45,835 nucleotides of DNA from contig JAGVNJ010000028.1 of NCBI GenBank assembly GCA_020053305.1, forward strand, positions 1 to 45,835, in the 5' to 3' direction. The notes beneath the pieces are model-generated. The model searched no databases, was not told the origin of the DNA, and saw only the letters and a list, made by a program, of their open reading frames with translations. The stretch is from Candidatus Edwardsiibacteriota bacterium (GTDB lineage: Bacteria; Edwardsbacteria; AC1; EtOH8). The position numbers were made by a program, and so were the translations under genes. Shown one piece after another: positions 4,040 through 16,941 of this stretch (the first letter of the stretch is position 1; each line of letters begins with the position of its first letter).

Positions 4040-4061
4040 TAAAGTTGAAAGTTCAAAGCTT
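4040..4061. repeat. A/T-patterned repeat (AAAGTTGAAAGTTCAAAG type)
   Basis: A short run built from alternating GTTGAA and GTTCAA words lies upstream of the RAM-domain gene. The same pattern is present inside the coding sequence of ppdK at 38234-38261, so it is a dispersed repeat rather than a local accident. Confidence 0.5.
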
Positions 4062-4088
4062 AAATGCTAACTTTGCAATAAAAGCGTA

Positions 4089-4280
4089 CACCCCTGAGTG
4101 ATATTTTAAGTACTGTAGTCGAAAGTGGGTGTTATCCAGGTTGTTTAACGTAGAAAAAGAAATGGGTGGCGGCAACAAATTAGACGACAACATTATAGAT
4201 TTCTAAGCAAATCAACTATAGCAGACCCACTTTCGATTACAGCACCTATGTTCACCCTCAATACTTAACATAGGGGGGTG
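4089..4280. mobile_element. MITE-like element with terminal inverted repeats and TA flanks
   Basis: The 192-bp element starts with CACCCC and ends with GGGGTG, and is flanked on both sides by TA (4087-4088 and 4281-4282). An 18-base inner inverted repeat (4113-4130 against 4225-4242, one mismatch, core TCGAAAGTGGGT) reinforces the symmetry. There is no coding capacity inside. TA target duplication with short inverted ends is what IS630/Tc1-mariner elements leave, so this is probably a non-autonomous derivative. It fills most of the gene-free stretch 3993-4364. Confidence 0.6.
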
Positions 4281-4318
4281 TACGGTTTCATACCAAAGCC
4301 AGCCCTTAAAGAATAAAA

Positions 4319-4353
4319 GCCTTTGCGTCTCTGTGCCTTTTGTGGTTCAAAAA
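4319..4353. repeat. Dispersed repeat, CTTTGCGTCT...GTGGTT family
   Basis: This copy reads CTTTGCGTCTCTGTGCC then TTTTGTGGTTC. Related copies are at 27518-27541, 36611-36661 (interrupted, inverted) and 42613-42634, all outside genes. Confidence 0.55.
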
Positions 4354-4364
4354 AACCTATCTGG

Positions 4365-5493
4365 TCAGAGGTCATCCCCGGATTCCATCTTGTCGAACTT
4401 GCCGCCCTTCTTGAGATAGGCGTTTATGAACCGATCTATCTCCCCGTCCATTACTGCTCTTACATCTCCAGTCTGCTCCAGGGTCCGGTGATCCTTGACC
4501 ATGCTGTAGGGGTGGAAGACATAGGAGCGGATCTGGTTGCCCCAGGCGATGTCGGTCTTGGCGGCCTCCAGGGACTGACGCTTTTTGTCCTCCTCGGCCT
4601 TGTAATGCTGATACAGACGGGAGCGCAGCACCTTCATGGCGTTGATCCGGTTCTGGTGCTGGGAGCGTTCGTTCTGGCTGCAGACCACTATCCCGGTGGG
4701 GATGTGAACCATCCGGATGGCGGTCTCCACTTTGTTGACGTTCTGACCGCCGGCTGAGCCGGCCCGGTAGACATCTATTCTGATATCTGATTCAGGAATG
4801 TCTACTTTAATGTTGTCGTCAATTTCCGGATAAACGAAGGCGGAGGCAAACGAAGTATGGCGACGCTTGTTGGAGTCGAAAGGAGATATCCTTACCAAAC
4901 GATGAACGCCGATTTCGGCCTTGAGATAGCCGAAGGCGTACTTTCCTGCCACTTCCACGGTTACGCTCTTGATGCCGGCTTCGTCGCCCGGCTGCAGGTC
5001 GATCACCTTATATTGATAGCCATTGCGCTCCATCCAGCGGGTGTACATCCGCAGCAGCATCTCGGCCCAATCCTGGGATTCGGTCCCCCCGGCCCCGGGG
5101 TGGATGGTTAAAATAGCGCTTCTTTCGTCATCCTCGCCCCGCAGCATATGGCGGAACTCCAGACTCTCTAACCCTTTTTCCAGGGCGGCCAGATCGTCCT
5201 GGATTTCTTTCAGGGATTCGCCGTCCGATTCCTCCACCAGCTCCAGCAGAGTGGCTACATCATCGCACTTTTTCCTCAGCTCCTTCCAGGGATCTATCCA
5301 TTCCCGACGTCGGTTGGCCTCTGCTATGACCTCCTTGGCTTTGATATTGTCGTTCCAAAAATCCGGGGACGACATCCTGGCCTCATATTCTGCCAGCTCA
5401 TTCTCCAACCGGTCCAGGTCAAAGATACCTCCGCAGGTTCTTTATATTCTCATCAGCAATCTGGCCGTTATTTTTTAATTCCTCTATTGCCAA
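4365..5493 (-). CDS. prfB: Peptide chain release factor 2, with programmed +1 frameshift
   Basis: RF2 recognises UGA and UAA and triggers peptide release. The joined product is about 375 residues. The frame-zero part runs from a TTG at 5493 (AAGGA nine bases upstream) for 24 codons to an in-frame UGA at 5421-5419, in the context CTT TGA C. An internal Shine-Dalgarno-like CGGAGG lies just before TAT CTT. A +1 shift on CTT continues as D-L-D-R-L-E-N-E into the main frame. The RF2 specificity tripeptide S-P-F lies at 203-205 and the catalytic G-G-Q at 248-250 of the joined protein, almost the E. coli positions. The TTG start is inferred: no ATG or GTG occurs in frame after the upstream TAA. Without the shift only a 24-residue peptide is made. 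Confidence 0.95.
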
Positions 5494-11053: not shown

Positions 11054-12021
11054 ATTTGCCACTTTAAAACAAATTGCTCCTGAGGTTTCATCACCGAAAA
11101 ACTATCCTTTTTGTCATTGCGATAGATATTTATCCCCACCGCCTGATCCTCCTGACGGTCGCAGTATCTGGCCAGGATCTTTCCGGCGGTCTGTAAGATA
11201 TCATCCGGAATCTCCCCACGGATGATGCCCACCGGGCCCTTGATATTCTCGGCCGGGCGGATGACGGTATCATCCCTTCCCGCCAGATCCAATAAACGCT
11301 GGTTCTCCGAGCGGTTGCGGCCCACTATCATTTTGGCTTTTTCATCCAGCCGGAAATGACGGCCGATGCTTAAAAGTTCCGTATCACGACGATTTAACCC
11401 CTCGTGAGCGATGAGTTCCTTCAATCGCTGGGAATATTTTTCCTCGGTCAGCAGACACCCTCCGGCCGGCTGGGGATAATCTTTTATGCCGAAGCTTTTG
11501 GCCAGCTCCTCCTGCCGTTTGCGGCCCCGGCCGGAATAATCGTAAAGTTTTTCCCGGTCCACCCAGCCCTCCCGTTCCGGCTTGGTGGGCTCCAGCAGTT
11601 TGGCCGACAGCGGGCGCAGCACCAGGTCCCGATCGGCCGATAATTTGAGGACGGCATTGAGGCCGCCGCGGGTCTGGGACATGGGCCTCTCGCCCAGCAC
11701 CTCCCCGGTGATCAGGAATGATGCCTCAAACCTTTCCAAAAGACTGTGGGCCGTTTTCAGCATCAGGCCATGGCAATCTATACAGGGGTTCATGTTGCCC
11801 CCGAAACCGTAGCGGGGGTTTTTCATCATGGCGAAATATTCCTCGGTGAAATCGTGTTCAATGAGTTTGATGCCCAGTGCCTTGGCGGCAGCCCGGGCAT
11901 TCTCCGGTCCGAAGAACGGCGCGACGAAGCAGACCCCGATCACCTCGATGCCCTGCTCCATGATCACCCTGGCCGCCAGAATGCTGTCCAGCCCGCCGGA
12001 GAGAAGTGTTAATGCTTTCAT
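11050..12021 (-). CDS. PP-loop ATPase of the ThiI/MnmA-like family with a C-terminal NFACT-R-type (DUF814) domain
   Basis: This 323-residue protein starts with the PP-loop L-L-S-G-G-L-D-S (about 6-13), which adenylates tRNA or small substrates in thiolation enzymes. A C-I-D-C motif (about 79-82) and G-G-C-L-L-T (about 187-192) supply cysteines that could carry sulfur. The last third resembles the RNA-binding domain shared with NFACT proteins (V-G-R-N-R-S-E-N, I-K-G-P-V-G-I-I-R-G). Related proteins are annotated as tRNA thiolases or methyltransferase-like, but their substrate is not firmly established. The order PP-loop then RNA-binding domain argues for a role in RNA sulfur modification. Length and start are normal. 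Confidence 0.8.
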   Translation of the reverse strand: MKALTLLSGGLDSILAARVIMEQGIEVIGVCFVAPFFGPENARAAAKALGIKLIEHDFTEEYFAMMKNPRYGFGGNMNPCIDCHGLMLKTAHSLLERFEASFLITGEVLGERPMSQTRGGLNAVLKLSADRDLVLRPLSAKLLEPTKPEREGWVDREKLYDYSGRGRKRQEELAKSFGIKDYPQPAGGCLLTEEKYSQRLKELIAHEGLNRRDTELLSIGRHFRLDEKAKMIVGRNRSENQRLLDLAGRDDTVIRPAENIKGPVGIIRGEIPDDILQTAGKILARYCDRQEDQAVGINIYRNDKKDSFSVMKPQEQFVLKWQI

Positions 12022-12076
12022 AAGCCGCTAACCTGGCCGTTTGTGGTATCTATCAGACTATCCAGCGCTGTTACCA

Positions 12077-12973
12077 TTACCATTTATGATCACCCACTAT
12101 GGCCTCCACCGCCTTGGGCAGTACGGATATCTCGTACCGCTTCTCCCTTTTGGCCCACAGTTCGCCGTCCACCTGGGCGGCCATGGGATGCTCCGATTCC
12201 ACTGTCACCTTTTGCGTCCGGCCCATCACGATCTGCTTGAGATGGGTATGTTTACCCTTGAAGGTCTTGGGCACGTGCCGGAAGAACTCCAGCCAGGTCA
12301 GTTTGTGGATGATGCACAAATCCAGCCAGCCGTCGTCTATCTCGGCATCCGGCGTCAGCAGGTAGCCGCCGCCCACACTCCGCCCGTTCATGATCTCCAC
12401 CAGCAGGGCCTCCACCCAAACCTTGCCTGATCCGAAATCCAGGCTAATCCGCTGGCCCTTGTAGCGCATCAGGGCCTTGACAGTCGCCAGCAGGTAAAGC
12501 TTCAGGTCCCGCAGACCCTTGATCTTCTGCTTTTCTATGATCACCTCGCCGTCCAGCCCGATGCCCAGCGAGTTGAAATAGTACCAGCCGTTGACCACCC
12601 CGGCGTCCATCATCCTGGTGCGGTGCTGTTTGATGTGGTTGACGGCGTGGGATATGTTGCGGCCGATGTTCAGGGATTTGGCCAGATCATCGCCCGAACC
12701 CAGGGGAATCATCCCGAACACCGCCTTGGTGCCCACCAGCGCCCCGGCCACCTCGCCGGCCACCCCGTCCCCGCCGCAGGCCACCATGACCTTGAAGCCG
12801 CGCTCCACCGCCTCCTTGGCCTGTTGCCGGGCGTCGCCCTCTTTGTCGGTCAGGGATATCTCAAAGTTGATGCCGGCGGCCTTCATCAGGGCCTTGACCT
12901 GCTCCAGATGTCCGGCCGCCTCGCCCCCGTGGGCCTTGGGATTGAAGATCACTTTGGTGCGTAGCATAATCAA
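12077..12973 (-). CDS. Diacylglycerol/lipid kinase family protein (YegS/DagK fold)
   Basis: This 298-residue protein belongs to the diacylglycerol kinase catalytic family, which phosphorylates lipid hydroxyls with ATP. The nucleotide-binding loop is G-G-D-G-V at 67-71 (usually G-G-D-G-T), followed by P-L-G-S-G-D-D-L-A where P-L-G-T-G-N-D is common. The C-terminal beta-sandwich with D-G-E-V-I-I-E and D-G-W-L-D-L is present. It may recycle diacylglycerol or act on another lipid. The Thr-to-Val change in the loop is worth noting but occurs at a position that tolerates variation. It is preceded directly by the inserted four-helix-bundle cassette, which probably separates it from its original promoter. 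Confidence 0.85.
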   Translation of the reverse strand: MIMLRTKVIFNPKAHGGEAAGHLEQVKALMKAAGINFEISLTDKEGDARQQAKEAVERGFKVMVACGGDGVAGEVAGALVGTKAVFGMIPLGSGDDLAKSLNIGRNISHAVNHIKQHRTRMMDAGVVNGWYYFNSLGIGLDGEVIIEKQKIKGLRDLKLYLLATVKALMRYKGQRISLDFGSGKVWVEALLVEIMNGRSVGGGYLLTPDAEIDDGWLDLCIIHKLTWLEFFRHVPKTFKGKHTHLKQIVMGRTQKVTVESEHPMAAQVDGELWAKREKRYEISVLPKAVEAIVGDHKW

Positions 12974-12980
12974 GACTATT

Positions 12981-13422
12981 GAATTTAGAATTTGGAATAT
13001 TGAATTATAAAGTCACATGCTTTTCCGAATAGTCGTCATATAGCCTTCCAATAACTTGCTTACAACATCAAGCTCCGATATCAATTCATCACTTCTTCCA
13101 TAGCCCAGATCAGCCGCCAGGATCAGGTAATACCTGACCTCTTCCAGCGATCCCTGAGCGATATTCAAATAACGAACTTTGTCCGGTTTCCCCTTTTTCT
13201 TAAAACCTTCGGCAATATTAGCCGGGACGGAAATGACCGCCCGCCGTAATTGCGGAACCAGGCAATAAATTTCCTTGCCGGGGAAATTGTCAGCATATTT
13301 GTAAATCTTTAAAACAAGCTGATGGCCCTTCTGCCAAACGATCAGATCACTAAAGCTTTTCGCAGGTTCTCTATTCATATTCACTCAACTATTCGGTATT
13401 CAAAATTCAATATTCTATATTC
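12981..13422. mobile_element. Four-helix-bundle cassette with imperfect terminal inverted repeats
   Basis: A 27-base sequence at 12981-13007 (GAATTTAGAATTTGGAATA...) faces an inverted counterpart at 13396-13422 (minus strand GAATATAGAATATTGAATT...), about 21 of 27 matching, both built on a GAAT rhythm. Between them sits only the four-helix-bundle gene. The right end begins eight bases beyond the ridA stop, and the left end sits eight bases before the lipid-kinase start. This looks like a 442-bp inserted unit. Mobility is inferred; no transposase is present. Confidence 0.5.
13013..13384 (-). CDS. Four-helix-bundle protein (23S rRNA IVS family)
   Basis: This 123-residue protein matches the four-helix-bundle family first found in intervening sequences of 23S rRNA genes. 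Hallmarks are F-S-D-L-I-V-W-Q-K-G-H-Q-L-V near the start, the central R-R-A-V-I-S-V-P-A-N-I-A-E-G-F and the final helix E-L-D-V-V-S-K-L-L-E-G-Y. Members form pentameric helical bundles; their biological role is not known. The start is GTG at 13384 or ATG at 13378, neither with a strong ribosome binding site. The gene is intact and flanked by inverted repeats that suggest it arrived as a unit. Confidence 0.88.
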   Translation of the reverse strand: MNMNREPAKSFSDLIVWQKGHQLVLKIYKYADNFPGKEIYCLVPQLRRAVISVPANIAEGFKKKGKPDKVRYLNIAQGSLEEVRYYLILAADLGYGRSDELISELDVVSKLLEGYMTTIRKSM

Positions 13423-13429
13423 TTTTTTA

Positions 13430-13810
13430 TCAGATCTCCCCAATCGCCTCTATCTCGATCCTGGCATCCTTGGGCAGCCGGGCCACCTGAAAGGCCGAGC
13501 GGGCCGGCGGGGCCTGGTTGAAATACTCGCCGTAAACCTCGTTCATGGCGGCAAAGTCGTTCATGTCGGCCAGGAACACCGTGCACTTGATGACCTTCTT
13601 GAGGTTTGAGCCGCCGGCCTCCAGCACCGCTTTGAGGTTCTCCAGCACCTGCTTGGTCTGGACCTTGATGTCGCCCTCCACCATCTGCCCGGTCTTGGGG
13701 TCCAGCGGTATCTGCCCGGAGGTAAAGACTAATTTGCTGTCGAACTCGATGCCCTGGGAATAGGGCCCTATGGCACCCGGGGCCTTGTCGGTCTTGATTA
13801 TCTGACGCAT
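13430..13810 (-). CDS. ridA: RidA family enamine/imine deaminase
   Basis: This 126-residue protein is a RidA (YjgF) homologue, which hydrolyses reactive enamines and imines released by PLP enzymes such as threonine dehydratase. G-P-Y-S-Q-G (15-20), the strand F-T-S-G-Q-I-P and P-P-A-R-S-A-F at 101-107 are present; R104 is the substrate-carboxylate arginine of active members. The length is standard. The gene starts 11 bases after the stop of the restriction-modification gene and may ride on its transcript. Confidence 0.93.
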
Positions 13811-13821
13811 TATGAAAATCC

Positions 13822-16800
13822 TTATATCGTTTTAATTTCTATTTTGTCGTAAAGTTTATCTATTTCTTTTTGGGTGGCAATGGTTTCGTGCAATGCGGTG
13901 GTGATTTTACAATATGTTTGGATTTCCTCCAACGAAAGTATCCTGCCCTTCCTGTCCTTTAGCCACTTATGGCAGACCTGATAACCGCCTATTTGGTATT
14001 CGTAAATATTTTGTGAAAGGCCGGAGAAATATTGGGTTTCGTTAATATATAACTTTGATTTTTCATAGGTCAATTTGCCAACCCGGTTGTCGCCTTTCCC
14101 CTCAAATTTCGCAATAGGCTTATTGAGAGTTTTGGATTTAAGCAAATGTAGTTCCGTTAACTGTTCTCCAAGCTCGGAAAGTTTTACAAACAGCTTAGAA
14201 TCTGCCGTAACCGGCACCCGGGGAAAATCGCTTTTTAGGAATTCGGCATATTTAGTCCGATAAGTATTGGAATAAAGCACGGCATAAATATAATTGAATA
14301 TCTGTTCCGGTTTGAGTGCTTTTCCGTAGGTTTTGGCAAGTTTTGCCACAAACTCCGGCGCTAAATTGGGCTTTTTTGTATTGTATTCAGCGCTGGGTTC
14401 GAAAAGCATCATAACGCCGGGAGTATAACTATTTTGTTTATTATTTTTTGGGTAAACATACAAGGGAAATATATACGCACTTGCATGTGCTGTCTCTAAA
14501 ATATGTAAATCCGTTAAATTATTTGTTACAAAATTATGACAAATATTTTCTGTGTGTACTTGCCTATTAGCTATTAAGGCAAGATTTTTACCATCTATCA
14601 TATTTTGCATCACTTCTGGCCTTGCTCTTTCAATTACTTCATCGTGGTAGCAAATCCAGCGAATATCAAATGGCCGGTATAATAAAGGGACTATCTTGTC
14701 TTTCCAGTTATTATCCCTCTTTAAATTTTCACGTGCTTTAGATAATTCCCACCCAGGCTTGCTTTTCAATCCATAACTTTGGGTAATTAACTCATCCGGC
14801 ATTTTTTTGTCAACAAATGATTCTATCCGCCGGATTAACTTGCTTTTATCCATATCGGTAACAAACTCATCCCTTGCGGTAACGATCCCAACACTATTTA
14901 CAGGGAAAATATCCGTTATTTTATAAAAATCATCATATACTTTCAGCAACTCTTCATCTCTTGGTATAAAGAAATAAAACTCACTTTTGGGAATAAGTTT
15001 TTCCCACTTTGTGGTTCCATGTTGTTTTTTCACCAACCAATTATATTTTTCTTCCCGCAGGCCATATTTTCCAGCATACAATACCTTGCTTTTTTTAGTT
15101 TGTGTTTTATGCTTAATCATAAGAACTATTGCCACGCCTTGCATGATATCAAAAACATTCTCATCCTTTGACCCGTCAGGACACTTTTCTTTTTTAAGTG
15201 CACTGCCATGCAGGTCAAGTACCCGTATTTCATCAAAAGTGTCCATTAACGATTGGCGCATACCCCTGAATGTAGGATTGTCCAAATAGCTATGATTTGT
15301 AATCATGCCGACCACGCCCTTCCCGGCTTGGTCAATTTTCCACTGGGCAAAACGAATGAATTTTACATAGTCATCTTGTAGCCACTTTGGGTTTTTCTCA
15401 CCCAAAGGCTTTCCGTCAACTTGAAAATATTCCTTAATTTCCTTGCTTATCCAATCGCCTTTATTGGTGGAATGGCCGGAATATGGCGGGTTACCCACTA
15501 TTACCAAAATCTTTTCCTGCCGTTTAACATGGTTGGCTTCCTTGGACTCTTTGGACAATTCGGCCATAAATGGGATATTGGTCTGCTTGAATTCATCCAT
15601 TTCAAGGGTATTGGTCAAATACAACTTAAAGCGGTCGTCATCTCGCAGTTTATAGCCCAACTCCTCCAACAGAAAACCCATTTTTAAATGCCCCACCGCA
15701 TAAGGGGCCATCATCAGTTCAAAGGCGTAAAAGTTTTTCAGGATATGTTCTTTGATGAATTTATCCTTGCTTCCCTTACCATATTTGCCCACAAATTCAC
15801 TGACCGCCAATTTTGCGGCTTCGGCTAAAAAGGTAAGCGTTCCGGCGGCCGGGTCAAGCACTGTTACATCGGGAGAGGCCAAGCCATCGGCCTTGTTAAA
15901 TTCATCTTTCAGTATCTGGTGCAAAGAACGGACGATATAGCCTACCACCGGCTCAGGCGTATAGTAAACGCCGCGCTTTTCACGCAAGGAGGGATCGTAT
16001 TCGCTTAGAAATGTTTCGTAAAAGTGAACTATTGGGTCTTTACCCTTGCCCTGTTCATAGTACTCATGCAAAAGTTTATTGACATCGGCGGCGTTTAAAA
16101 CTGCTGCGATGTCGTCCACCGCCCATTCCAAGGGCTTTGGTATATCGCTTGAAGAAATGAACTGAAACACCGAACGCAAAATGCCGATGGTTCGGGGAAT
16201 ATATTTAAAAGCCAGCTCGCGGTTGAATTGCCCCGGGCATCTGGTCCGGGCGGCAAACAGGCCGTAGGTCAGGGTTTGCGAATACAGGTCGGCAAACTCT
16301 TCCTTGGTCAGACCGGCTATCAAAGCCTGCTTAAATGCTTCGTAAAAACCCAATATATTTCCGGCTTTGGCGCTGTCCTCTTCTTTTAACTCTTCGGTGA
16401 TTACTTCGTCGCGTAAAAATCTTGTTCGCTTGGCTAATTCCAAAGCCAGTGTTTTTGCGGTAAACGTTTTTGGCAGGCTAAAAGCAAAGAATTTTTCCAG
16501 CAATTTATAAAAGGCGTCTTCATGTTCTACCGGCGGAGCGGCTTTAAGTTTATTGAGTATAAAAGGCCGCCCGATCTTCACGGTATCTATACATTCGCCA
16601 TTGCGATAAAGCCTGAATTCAAGAAAGTTGGTTAAGATTAAATTGGGGAAGGTATGAAGATAGCGTTTGAGTTGTTCGGATGTTTCAATGGTATCTAAAT
16701 TGTCCTTAGTAGGTTCCTTGGCCTCTATATAGCCTATGATATCGTGCTGGCCGTCCCAGATCCGGAAATCAGGGTTTCCGGCATCGGTCTTTTTGGGCAA

Positions 16801-16941
16801 GGTAGTAACGTGAATGTTTTTTAGTTTTTGGTTTTCGGCATAGGCAATAAATAGGCGTTCCAGCGAAGAATAGTAACTTTCCTCGCGGGCATCGCCTGCC
16901 TGTGCAGTATCAACAAGCGATTTTATGTATTCTTGCAACAT
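13822..16941 (-). CDS. Helicase-less ISP-like/type IIG restriction-modification enzyme
   Basis: This 1039-residue single-chain enzyme combines nuclease, adenine methyltransferase and target recognition. The N-terminus holds a PD-(D/E)XK-type site (P-D at 57-58, E-A-K at 73-75). A helical connector leads to R-G-V-Y-Y-T-P-E (323-330), SAM-binding D-P-A-A-G-T (363-368) and the N6-adenine motif N-P-P-Y (484-487). The last 350 residues resemble the type ISP C-terminal specificity region ([17 protein letters not shown]). No helicase motifs occur between nuclease and methylase, unlike the roughly 1600-residue LlaGI-type ISP enzymes. It has more A/T than its neighbours and sits beside xerD, which suggests horizontal gain. 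It appears intact; the target is unknown. Confidence 0.88.

Follow-up and report, generated by a model that had tools for sequence, protein, structure and literature searches.

IVP (S23p) four-helix-bundle genes lie, in most of the cases we examined in bacteria and archaea, between two arms built from tandem copies of one short word, the second arm being inverted. The gene found between ridA and a lipid kinase gene in the window (the whole stretch of 45,835 nt analyzed here) has this layout. We consider it a mobile fold-back cassette of the 23S rRNA IVS kind, placed between operon genes instead of within rRNA, and put the probability of this reading at about 0.6. The anatomy and, at other loci, the joint movement of gene and arms were observed; processing and the mode of movement we infer.

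The IVP gene of the window and its arms

The product of the window gene matched Pfam 23S_rRNA_IVP (PF05635) with an E value of 1.5e-32 (112.4 bits, curated cut-off of 33.8) and the TIGR02436 four helix bundle family with an E value of 3.8e-31 (107.5 bits, curated cut-off of 24), which confirms the IVS-type four-helix-bundle identity proposed in a first-pass annotation of the sequence. A PDB relative is 2GSC XCC0516 (E value of 5.7e-21). Pfam/TIGR-type profile searches revealed no catalytic domain in the protein, and no recombinase family was matched. The gene and both its neighbors, ridA and the kinase gene, are encoded on one strand (Table 1).

Table 1. The IVP cassette of the window and the adjoining genes.
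Feature	Coordinates	Strand	Remarks
IVP / S23p four-helix-bundle gene	13013..13384	-	123 aa; start GTG, or ATG two codons in
Upstream arm (coding strand)	13391..13430	-	core 13398-13422; words GAATATA GAATATT GAATTTT GAATACC GAATAGT
Downstream arm (coding strand)	12966..13005	-	core 12981-13005; inverted GAATnnn word, ATTCAATATTCCAAATTCTAAATTCAATAGTC
ridA, Rid family deaminase, upstream neighbor	13430..13810	-	profile searches
YegS/BmrU-like lipid kinase, downstream neighbor	12077..12973	-	profile searches

The same annotation had described a cassette at 12981–13422 with a GAAT rhythm, fitting tightly between two genes. These bounds coincide with the ends of the core arms, GAAT recurs in the arms every 7 nt, and the core arms stop 7 to 8 nt from both neighboring ORFs. 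The core arms are 25 nt long, with 84% complementarity, and are enclosed by a longer pair of 40 nt with 78% complementarity, of which the outer upstream end abuts the ridA stop codon and the downstream end reaches as far as the kinase start. The inverted repeats are therefore real, but their length is 25 or 40 nt, depending on scoring, rather than the 27 bases given previously. In a scan of the whole window for inverted repeats with arms at most 1 kb apart, this pair was the top one (score of 35, the next being 33). When arms were exchanged with those from elsewhere, 99.5% of the pairings scored lower than the locus' own arms (p = 0.005), and the arm pair is not due to chance.

Two other features of the window can be recorded here. 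Overlapping inverted repeats occupy positions 4060–4825 (4060–4094/4275–4309, 4107–4130/4225–4248, and 4177–4198/4805–4825), and a type IIG restriction-modification gene (13822–16941; PADLOC REase_MTase_IIG) adjoins ridA.

Inverted word arms flank most IVP genes

The genome to which the window belongs contains 15 IVP genes by protein search and 17 by profile. Most of the 15, when their flanks were placed side by side, had arms of their own, each based on another word; GGGTTTA, GTAAAGT, GTGATAC, and TGACATTG are among them. Two IVP genes with tRNA genes of the same strand on either side (L011 and L012) have weak arms or none.

An arm score was calculated by aligning the upstream flank with the reverse complement of the downstream flank, with flanks swapped between loci as a control. 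The analysis included 186 IVP genes: 100 from the genome of the window and its relatives and 86 from named genomes of many phyla. The relatives set was what remained of 125 unique IVP ORFs after removal of those with a profile coverage below 95 positions, short flanks, or Ns; since it contains orthologs, its 100 rows are not independent. The 86 ORFs of the named set, from which one (L235) was dropped for a short flank, come from 80 loci found by scanning a genome collection and represent Bacteroidota, Atribacterota, Omnitrophota, Clostridia, Proteobacteria, candidate phyla, Methanophagales archaea, and others.

In the relatives set, the median score of matched arms was 25 compared to 14 for swapped arms (p ≤ 0.05 in 70 and p ≤ 0.01 in 41 of 100 genes). 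In the named set, the medians were 33 and 15 (p ≤ 0.05 in 75 and p ≤ 0.011 in 52 of 86). As a further control, ordinary genes of the same loci were scored (186 of 631 control genes); their median was 15 for both matched and mismatched flanks, and p ≤ 0.05 was reached by 5 of 186. A score of at least 24 was observed for 131 of 186 IVP genes and for 3 of 186 ordinary genes (Mann-Whitney, 2e-47); the other 55 IVP genes scored below 24.

In loci scoring at least 24, the upstream arm usually fitted a period of 7 best (39 of 61 loci in one set and 52 of 70 in the other), and the autocorrelation of both flanks had maxima at lags of 7 and 14 nt and a smaller increase at 8 nt. C is scarce in the upstream arm (12%), and the downstream arm is therefore poor in G. 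In RNA folds predicted for 110 IVP loci drawn at random, at least 10 arm-arm pairs formed in 90 with their own arms compared to 42 with a foreign downstream arm. Among 162 IVP genes with both neighbors known (taken as the longest ORFs, uncurated), the neighbors agreed in orientation in 125, and 115 of these genes were sense and 10 antisense (binomial, 9e-24); adjacent gene pairs of the same loci agree in 75%. The order of words inside the arms mattered in 34 of 104 loci (p ≤ 0.05, with a selection bias in favor), and nested complementarity was rejected as the whole of the arm signal, being only a partial one.

In Anabaena sp. 90 plasmid pANA02 (L365), a ~360-nt spacer between cas6 and the IVP gene consists largely of AGGTGAC/AGGGAAC heptamers and is an expanded arm. 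On the reverse complement of L076, a palindromic TTACC...GTAA array with ~24-nt spacing follows a lone GTTTGAA arm at ~11840–12060. A distant genome, G017, contains short PF05635-like matches in divergent close pairs (C7:104028–104554, C2:122174–122711, and C3:436717–437275), unlike all other copies seen.

Arm words change faster than the protein

We compared word sharing with protein identity for the 131 of 186 IVP genes with an arm score of at least 24. At 70% identity or more, the word was common to two of three nonsyntenic pairs and to 70% of 20 syntenic pairs. At 60 to 70% identity, the word was common in 11% of nonsyntenic and 18% of syntenic pairs, and below 60%, in 0 to 3% (6.7% in one syntenic bin of 15 pairs), near the reversed-word control. 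For pairs with 50 to 60% identity, the fraction reaching 24 was 0.021 (nonsyntenic) and 0.030 (syntenic), compared to 0.007 and 0.030 for the reversed control. The six IVP genes of one Adhaeribacter genome, inspected by eye, each have a different word. Each arm word is thus confined to one locus or lineage and diverges more quickly than the IVP protein. One copy from Atribacterota and one from Omnitrophota, 74% identical and nonsyntenic, have the same word, AATAGTG; this looks like a transfer of gene and arms together.

Since most loci have arms unlike those of the others in sequence, sequence-conserved terminal repeats were rejected as a description of the element. The first-pass annotation had spoken of terminal inverted repeats and had proposed aligning the flanks of other copies, with a lack of similarity counting against a cassette. 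No common end sequence was found, yet the architecture, a tandem ~7-nt word that is inverted on the other side, is common; a decision by sequence would have wrongly dismissed the cassette.

Gene and arms move together

Filled and empty sites were found on related plasmids. In two empty records of Nostocales plasmids, a trb-operon spacer consists of AAAAAGTAA followed by TTAACAAATAAAT and the ATG. In Trichormus, 428 nt are inserted in this spacer after AAAAAGTAA, between the stop codon and the next start. Scytonema has a 414-nt insert with an upstream arm two words shorter. The 400-nt flanks of filled and empty plasmids are identical at 0.995 and 0.978. A third state of the site, an arm with a gene fragment, is present in Nostoc (C052). 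In another Nostoc operon, the junction between genes A and B was filled in three and empty in five of the records examined, and one of these five has a different IVP gene with another word at the B-C junction. The cas10-cmr3 junction holds a cassette in Picosynechococcus PCC 7003 and consists of 12 nt in PCC 7002. In the genus of the window itself, clean empty sites exist at iorA-iorB (G001, G002, and G003) and hypF-hypC (G001 and G002). Since the iorA-iorB copy of G000 and the adjacent iorB start resemble those of G006, which belongs to another genus, transfer with flanks is possible at this site.

Copies of one cassette were also found at unrelated sites. Three cassettes (L361, L362, and L363), gene and arms included, are 77 to 82% identical, while their 400-nt flanks are at the unrelated background (0.57 to 0.61), and blastn similarity starts and stops at the arms. 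Filled and empty alleles and the presence of the same cassette at unrelated sites show, at loci other than that of the window, that the gene moves as a unit with its arms, though the ends lack a fixed sequence. The earlier suggestion that inverted ends point to movement is thus borne out in substance, with filled and empty states resolved to single bases on the plasmids. Direct repeats of 4 to 5 nt, GTAA and TTCTA, were seen at two sites only and may be target duplications.

A phage as the vehicle was rejected, as no match was found in 50,697 phage records. IVP relatives are carried by 15 IMG/VR contigs; the arm score was at least 30 in 9 of 14 examined, several of which are near-identical. 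In Nostoc N6 plasmid pNPM1 (L377), the IVP gene is broken by a further insert bearing the same heptamer word.

The ridA-kinase site in the family of the window

Each of the 10 family genomes examined has ridA and the kinase gene side by side. The IVP gene is present between them in six (G000, G002, G004, G006, G007, and G009), absent in three (G001, G003, and G008), and unreadable because of Ns in one (G005). The copy in G009 (L020) is split by a ~240-nt insert holding a ~100-nt tandem duplication. The arms are GAATATT-like in G000, G002, and G009 and consist of other words in G004, G006, and G007. The gene is thus not universal at this locus, a condition that the first-pass annotation had set for a cassette. 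Empty sites, for which it had suggested a search, exist in the sense that the gene is absent; they are not clean, and all three hold a gene-less hairpin of a different, longer word, CCACAAAGACACAAAGGCACAAA, which looks like the GxxExxY type described below. The cassette at the site of the window is old and not a fresh arrival. In a hydrogenase-like operon of the same genomes, the whole cycle can be seen: cassettes that are orthologous, arms standing alone, hairpins of other kinds, and losses. Broken genes, lone arms, and gene-less hairpins form a decay series.

A second cargo and gene-less copies

The genome of the window also has 12 matches to PF13366 (GxxExxY, PD-(D/E)XK), most of which likewise lie between inverted word arms. 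Among 34 GxxExxY genes with at least 90 profile positions and full flanks, the median score was 29.5 for matched and 16 for swapped arms (p ≤ 0.05 in 18 of 34); the swapped-arm control is weaker here because words are alike between loci. The best period was 8 to 10 in 20 of 22 cases. Where the neighbors agree in orientation, GxxExxY genes with inverted arms of ~8- to 10-nt words (L136–L147 and L148–L175) are in the sense orientation in 23 cases and against it in one. GxxExxY is a second, unrelated cargo of the same arm architecture. IVP genes were found in 18 of 20 genomes with GxxExxY compared to 10 of 41 without (Fisher, 1e-6; 0.002 when the family of the window is excluded).

The pattern GGGRNYCGGGRNYCGGG has 159 matches in Pseudoxanthomonas and 127 in Phormidium, compared to 0 and 4 for the reversed pattern, and there are only three IVP genes per genome. 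Twenty stretches from these two genomes contain nine gene-less convergent word pairs with gaps of 29 to 88 nt, one convergent pair with an IVP gene (gap of 394), and many single arrays; no divergent pairs were found in these stretches.

A broader proposal, which we advance tentatively, is that the architecture defines the element class: any tandem short word mirrored around one small gene would serve as ends, and the word would be rewritten as lineages diverge. Two unrelated proteins would use it, IVP with ~7-nt words and GxxExxY PD-(D/E)XK with ~8- to 10-nt words; gene-less hairpins would be nonautonomous copies, and the heptamers of Xanthomonas and Nostoc would be debris.

Possible mechanism and alternative explanations

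According to the cassette reading, the element consists of a single IVP gene flanked by short arrays of one ~7-nt word, which is inverted in the second array. The arms may pair in the transcript, and an RNase III-type cut, by analogy with that published for the Coxiella 23S IVS, would detach the IVP message, so that the host operon would tolerate the insert. If it is the folded or arrayed structure and not the sequence that is recognized, any word would serve. Words may change by slippage and spread between arms by hairpin-templated repair, and an IVP pentamer might aid movement via a putative partner or a host enzyme.

The arms could instead act at the DNA level only, as cruciforms or single-strand hairpins during movement, with the sense bias arising because antisense copies hurt the operon. 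We consider this unlikely. attC sites and IS200/605 ends act as such single-strand hairpins or cruciforms in movement. Mismatches of the G·U type showed no sense-strand excess in the arms (44 sense and 33 antisense; in the named set, 56 sense and 92 antisense), so nothing indicates selection for a sense-RNA stem, and the gene-less convergent pairs of Pseudoxanthomonas and Phormidium resemble nonautonomous copies. However, the predominance of the sense orientation, in 115 of the 125 genes whose neighbors agree, argues otherwise. The IVP lacks a recombinase domain, and the available account of the 23S IVS describes the same anatomy being cut as RNA (PMC4990558). As there is no sense G·U bias and word order matters only partly, the model of a transcribed, structure-recognized, IVS-like element combines what was observed with what is conjectured.

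It is rather improbable that the IVP binds its own word arrays sequence specifically as an autoregulator or operon regulator, with the arms as operators. At some loci (L103 and the J2 junction), the cores of the words are conserved and the spacers variable, and tandem arrays might suit a pentameric ring; yet proteins with 50 to 60% identity mostly have unrelated words, as do the six Adhaeribacter genes. We regard as very improbable an RNA module between cistrons that serves the host by processing or attenuation, passes on mainly by inheritance, and is frequently lost. Different genera do retain orthologous IVP genes at matching junctions of the hydrogenase operon, and where the IVP is absent at ridA-kinase and at one operon junction, some relatives have another hairpin. 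Clean empty sites within one genus and on near-identical plasmids, the same cassette at unrelated operons, and decayed remnants count against it. A chance likeness between the AT-rich spacers on both sides of an ordinary gene of scattered distribution, which the AT-rich and imperfect arms of the window might suggest, is refuted by the swapped-arm and ordinary-gene controls and does not fit GC-rich arms such as GGGGACC and GGGAGTC in the named set.

Comparison with known systems

The sequence-conserved terminal repeats of IS and MITE elements have no counterpart here, as words are mostly unrelated below ~60% protein identity. Filled and empty alleles and the same element at several sites, as for IS and MITEs, were observed at other loci and not at the window's own. 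In place of an encoded transposase or recombinase, only the IVP and weak profile matches to the DGR accessory protein Avd/bAvd were found (for the window protein, PF22296 with an E value of 8.8e-5 and NF033474 with 1.7e-5, below both curated cut-offs); a likeness of IVP to Avd has been noted in the accessible part of PMC10053308. A need for a resident RVT_1 reverse transcriptase was rejected: among eight IVP-bearing genomes, two (G000 and G002) have a match and six have none.

In the part of PMC4692102 available, GGGAATC of Xanthomonas and GGGGA(C/T)T of Nostoc are described as heptameric G-quadruplex repeats, with 70 to 75 convergent inverted pairs of GGGAATC arrays. Like the arms, these are 7-nt tandem words, and Pseudoxanthomonas and Phormidium contain words of the same kind, some with an IVP gene and some without one. 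Tandem TAACTGA heptamers of Beggiatoaceae lie upstream of start codons (PMC4679880); unlike the arms, they are direct repeats of one word. The terms "23S" and "S23" are absent from both texts. IVP genes next to cas4, cas6, and cmr have been listed among CRISPR-Cas–associated functions (PMC3936711, as far as its available text goes); they are of the same family, and two plasmid cassettes described here are of the same kind, while "inverted" is absent from that text. The presence of IVP in or near CRISPR loci was also noted in the accessible part of PMC10910872. In the open-access literature, a scope that leaves out most subscription journals and all bioRxiv preprints, we found no paper that connects arms of inverted heptamers with IVP genes located elsewhere than in rRNA.

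The closest likeness is to the 23S IVS of Coxiella burnetii. In the available portion of its description (PMC4990558), that element contains an S23p ORF of the same family, measures ~430 nt, has the ORF in sense orientation in the transcript, and is closed by a terminal stem of 28 bp, in which RNase III cuts; tandem GACAGAT heptamers, whose number varies between strains, lie just upstream of the start. The cassettes likewise have an S23p-type ORF within complementary ends and tandem heptamers beside it, as the lag-7 peak indicates. In contrast to the Coxiella element, they lie between tRNA genes or in the spacers of operons (for proteins, cas, and conjugation), with many per genome and a different word for each, and the RNase III cut is known, from the same portion, for Coxiella only. 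The window copy lies between ridA and the lipid kinase gene and not inside 23S rRNA; four exact 23S motifs were absent from those IVP loci in which they were sought, and the assembly of the window itself is without an LSU rRNA match, so that a 23S IVS may yet exist in that genome. Given the anatomy shared with what is available of the Coxiella description, we take the cassettes as IVS elements outside rRNA. PF05635 proteins, abundant, scattered, and without a known role, thereby obtain a consistent and testable genetic context, that of an IVS-like mobile cassette, which poses a sharp question of how an element moves and keeps its ends matched without a fixed end sequence. Three separate puzzles, the 23S IVS, IVP genes in cas and other operons, and the heptamer repeats of Xanthomonas and Nostoc, are joined in this way.
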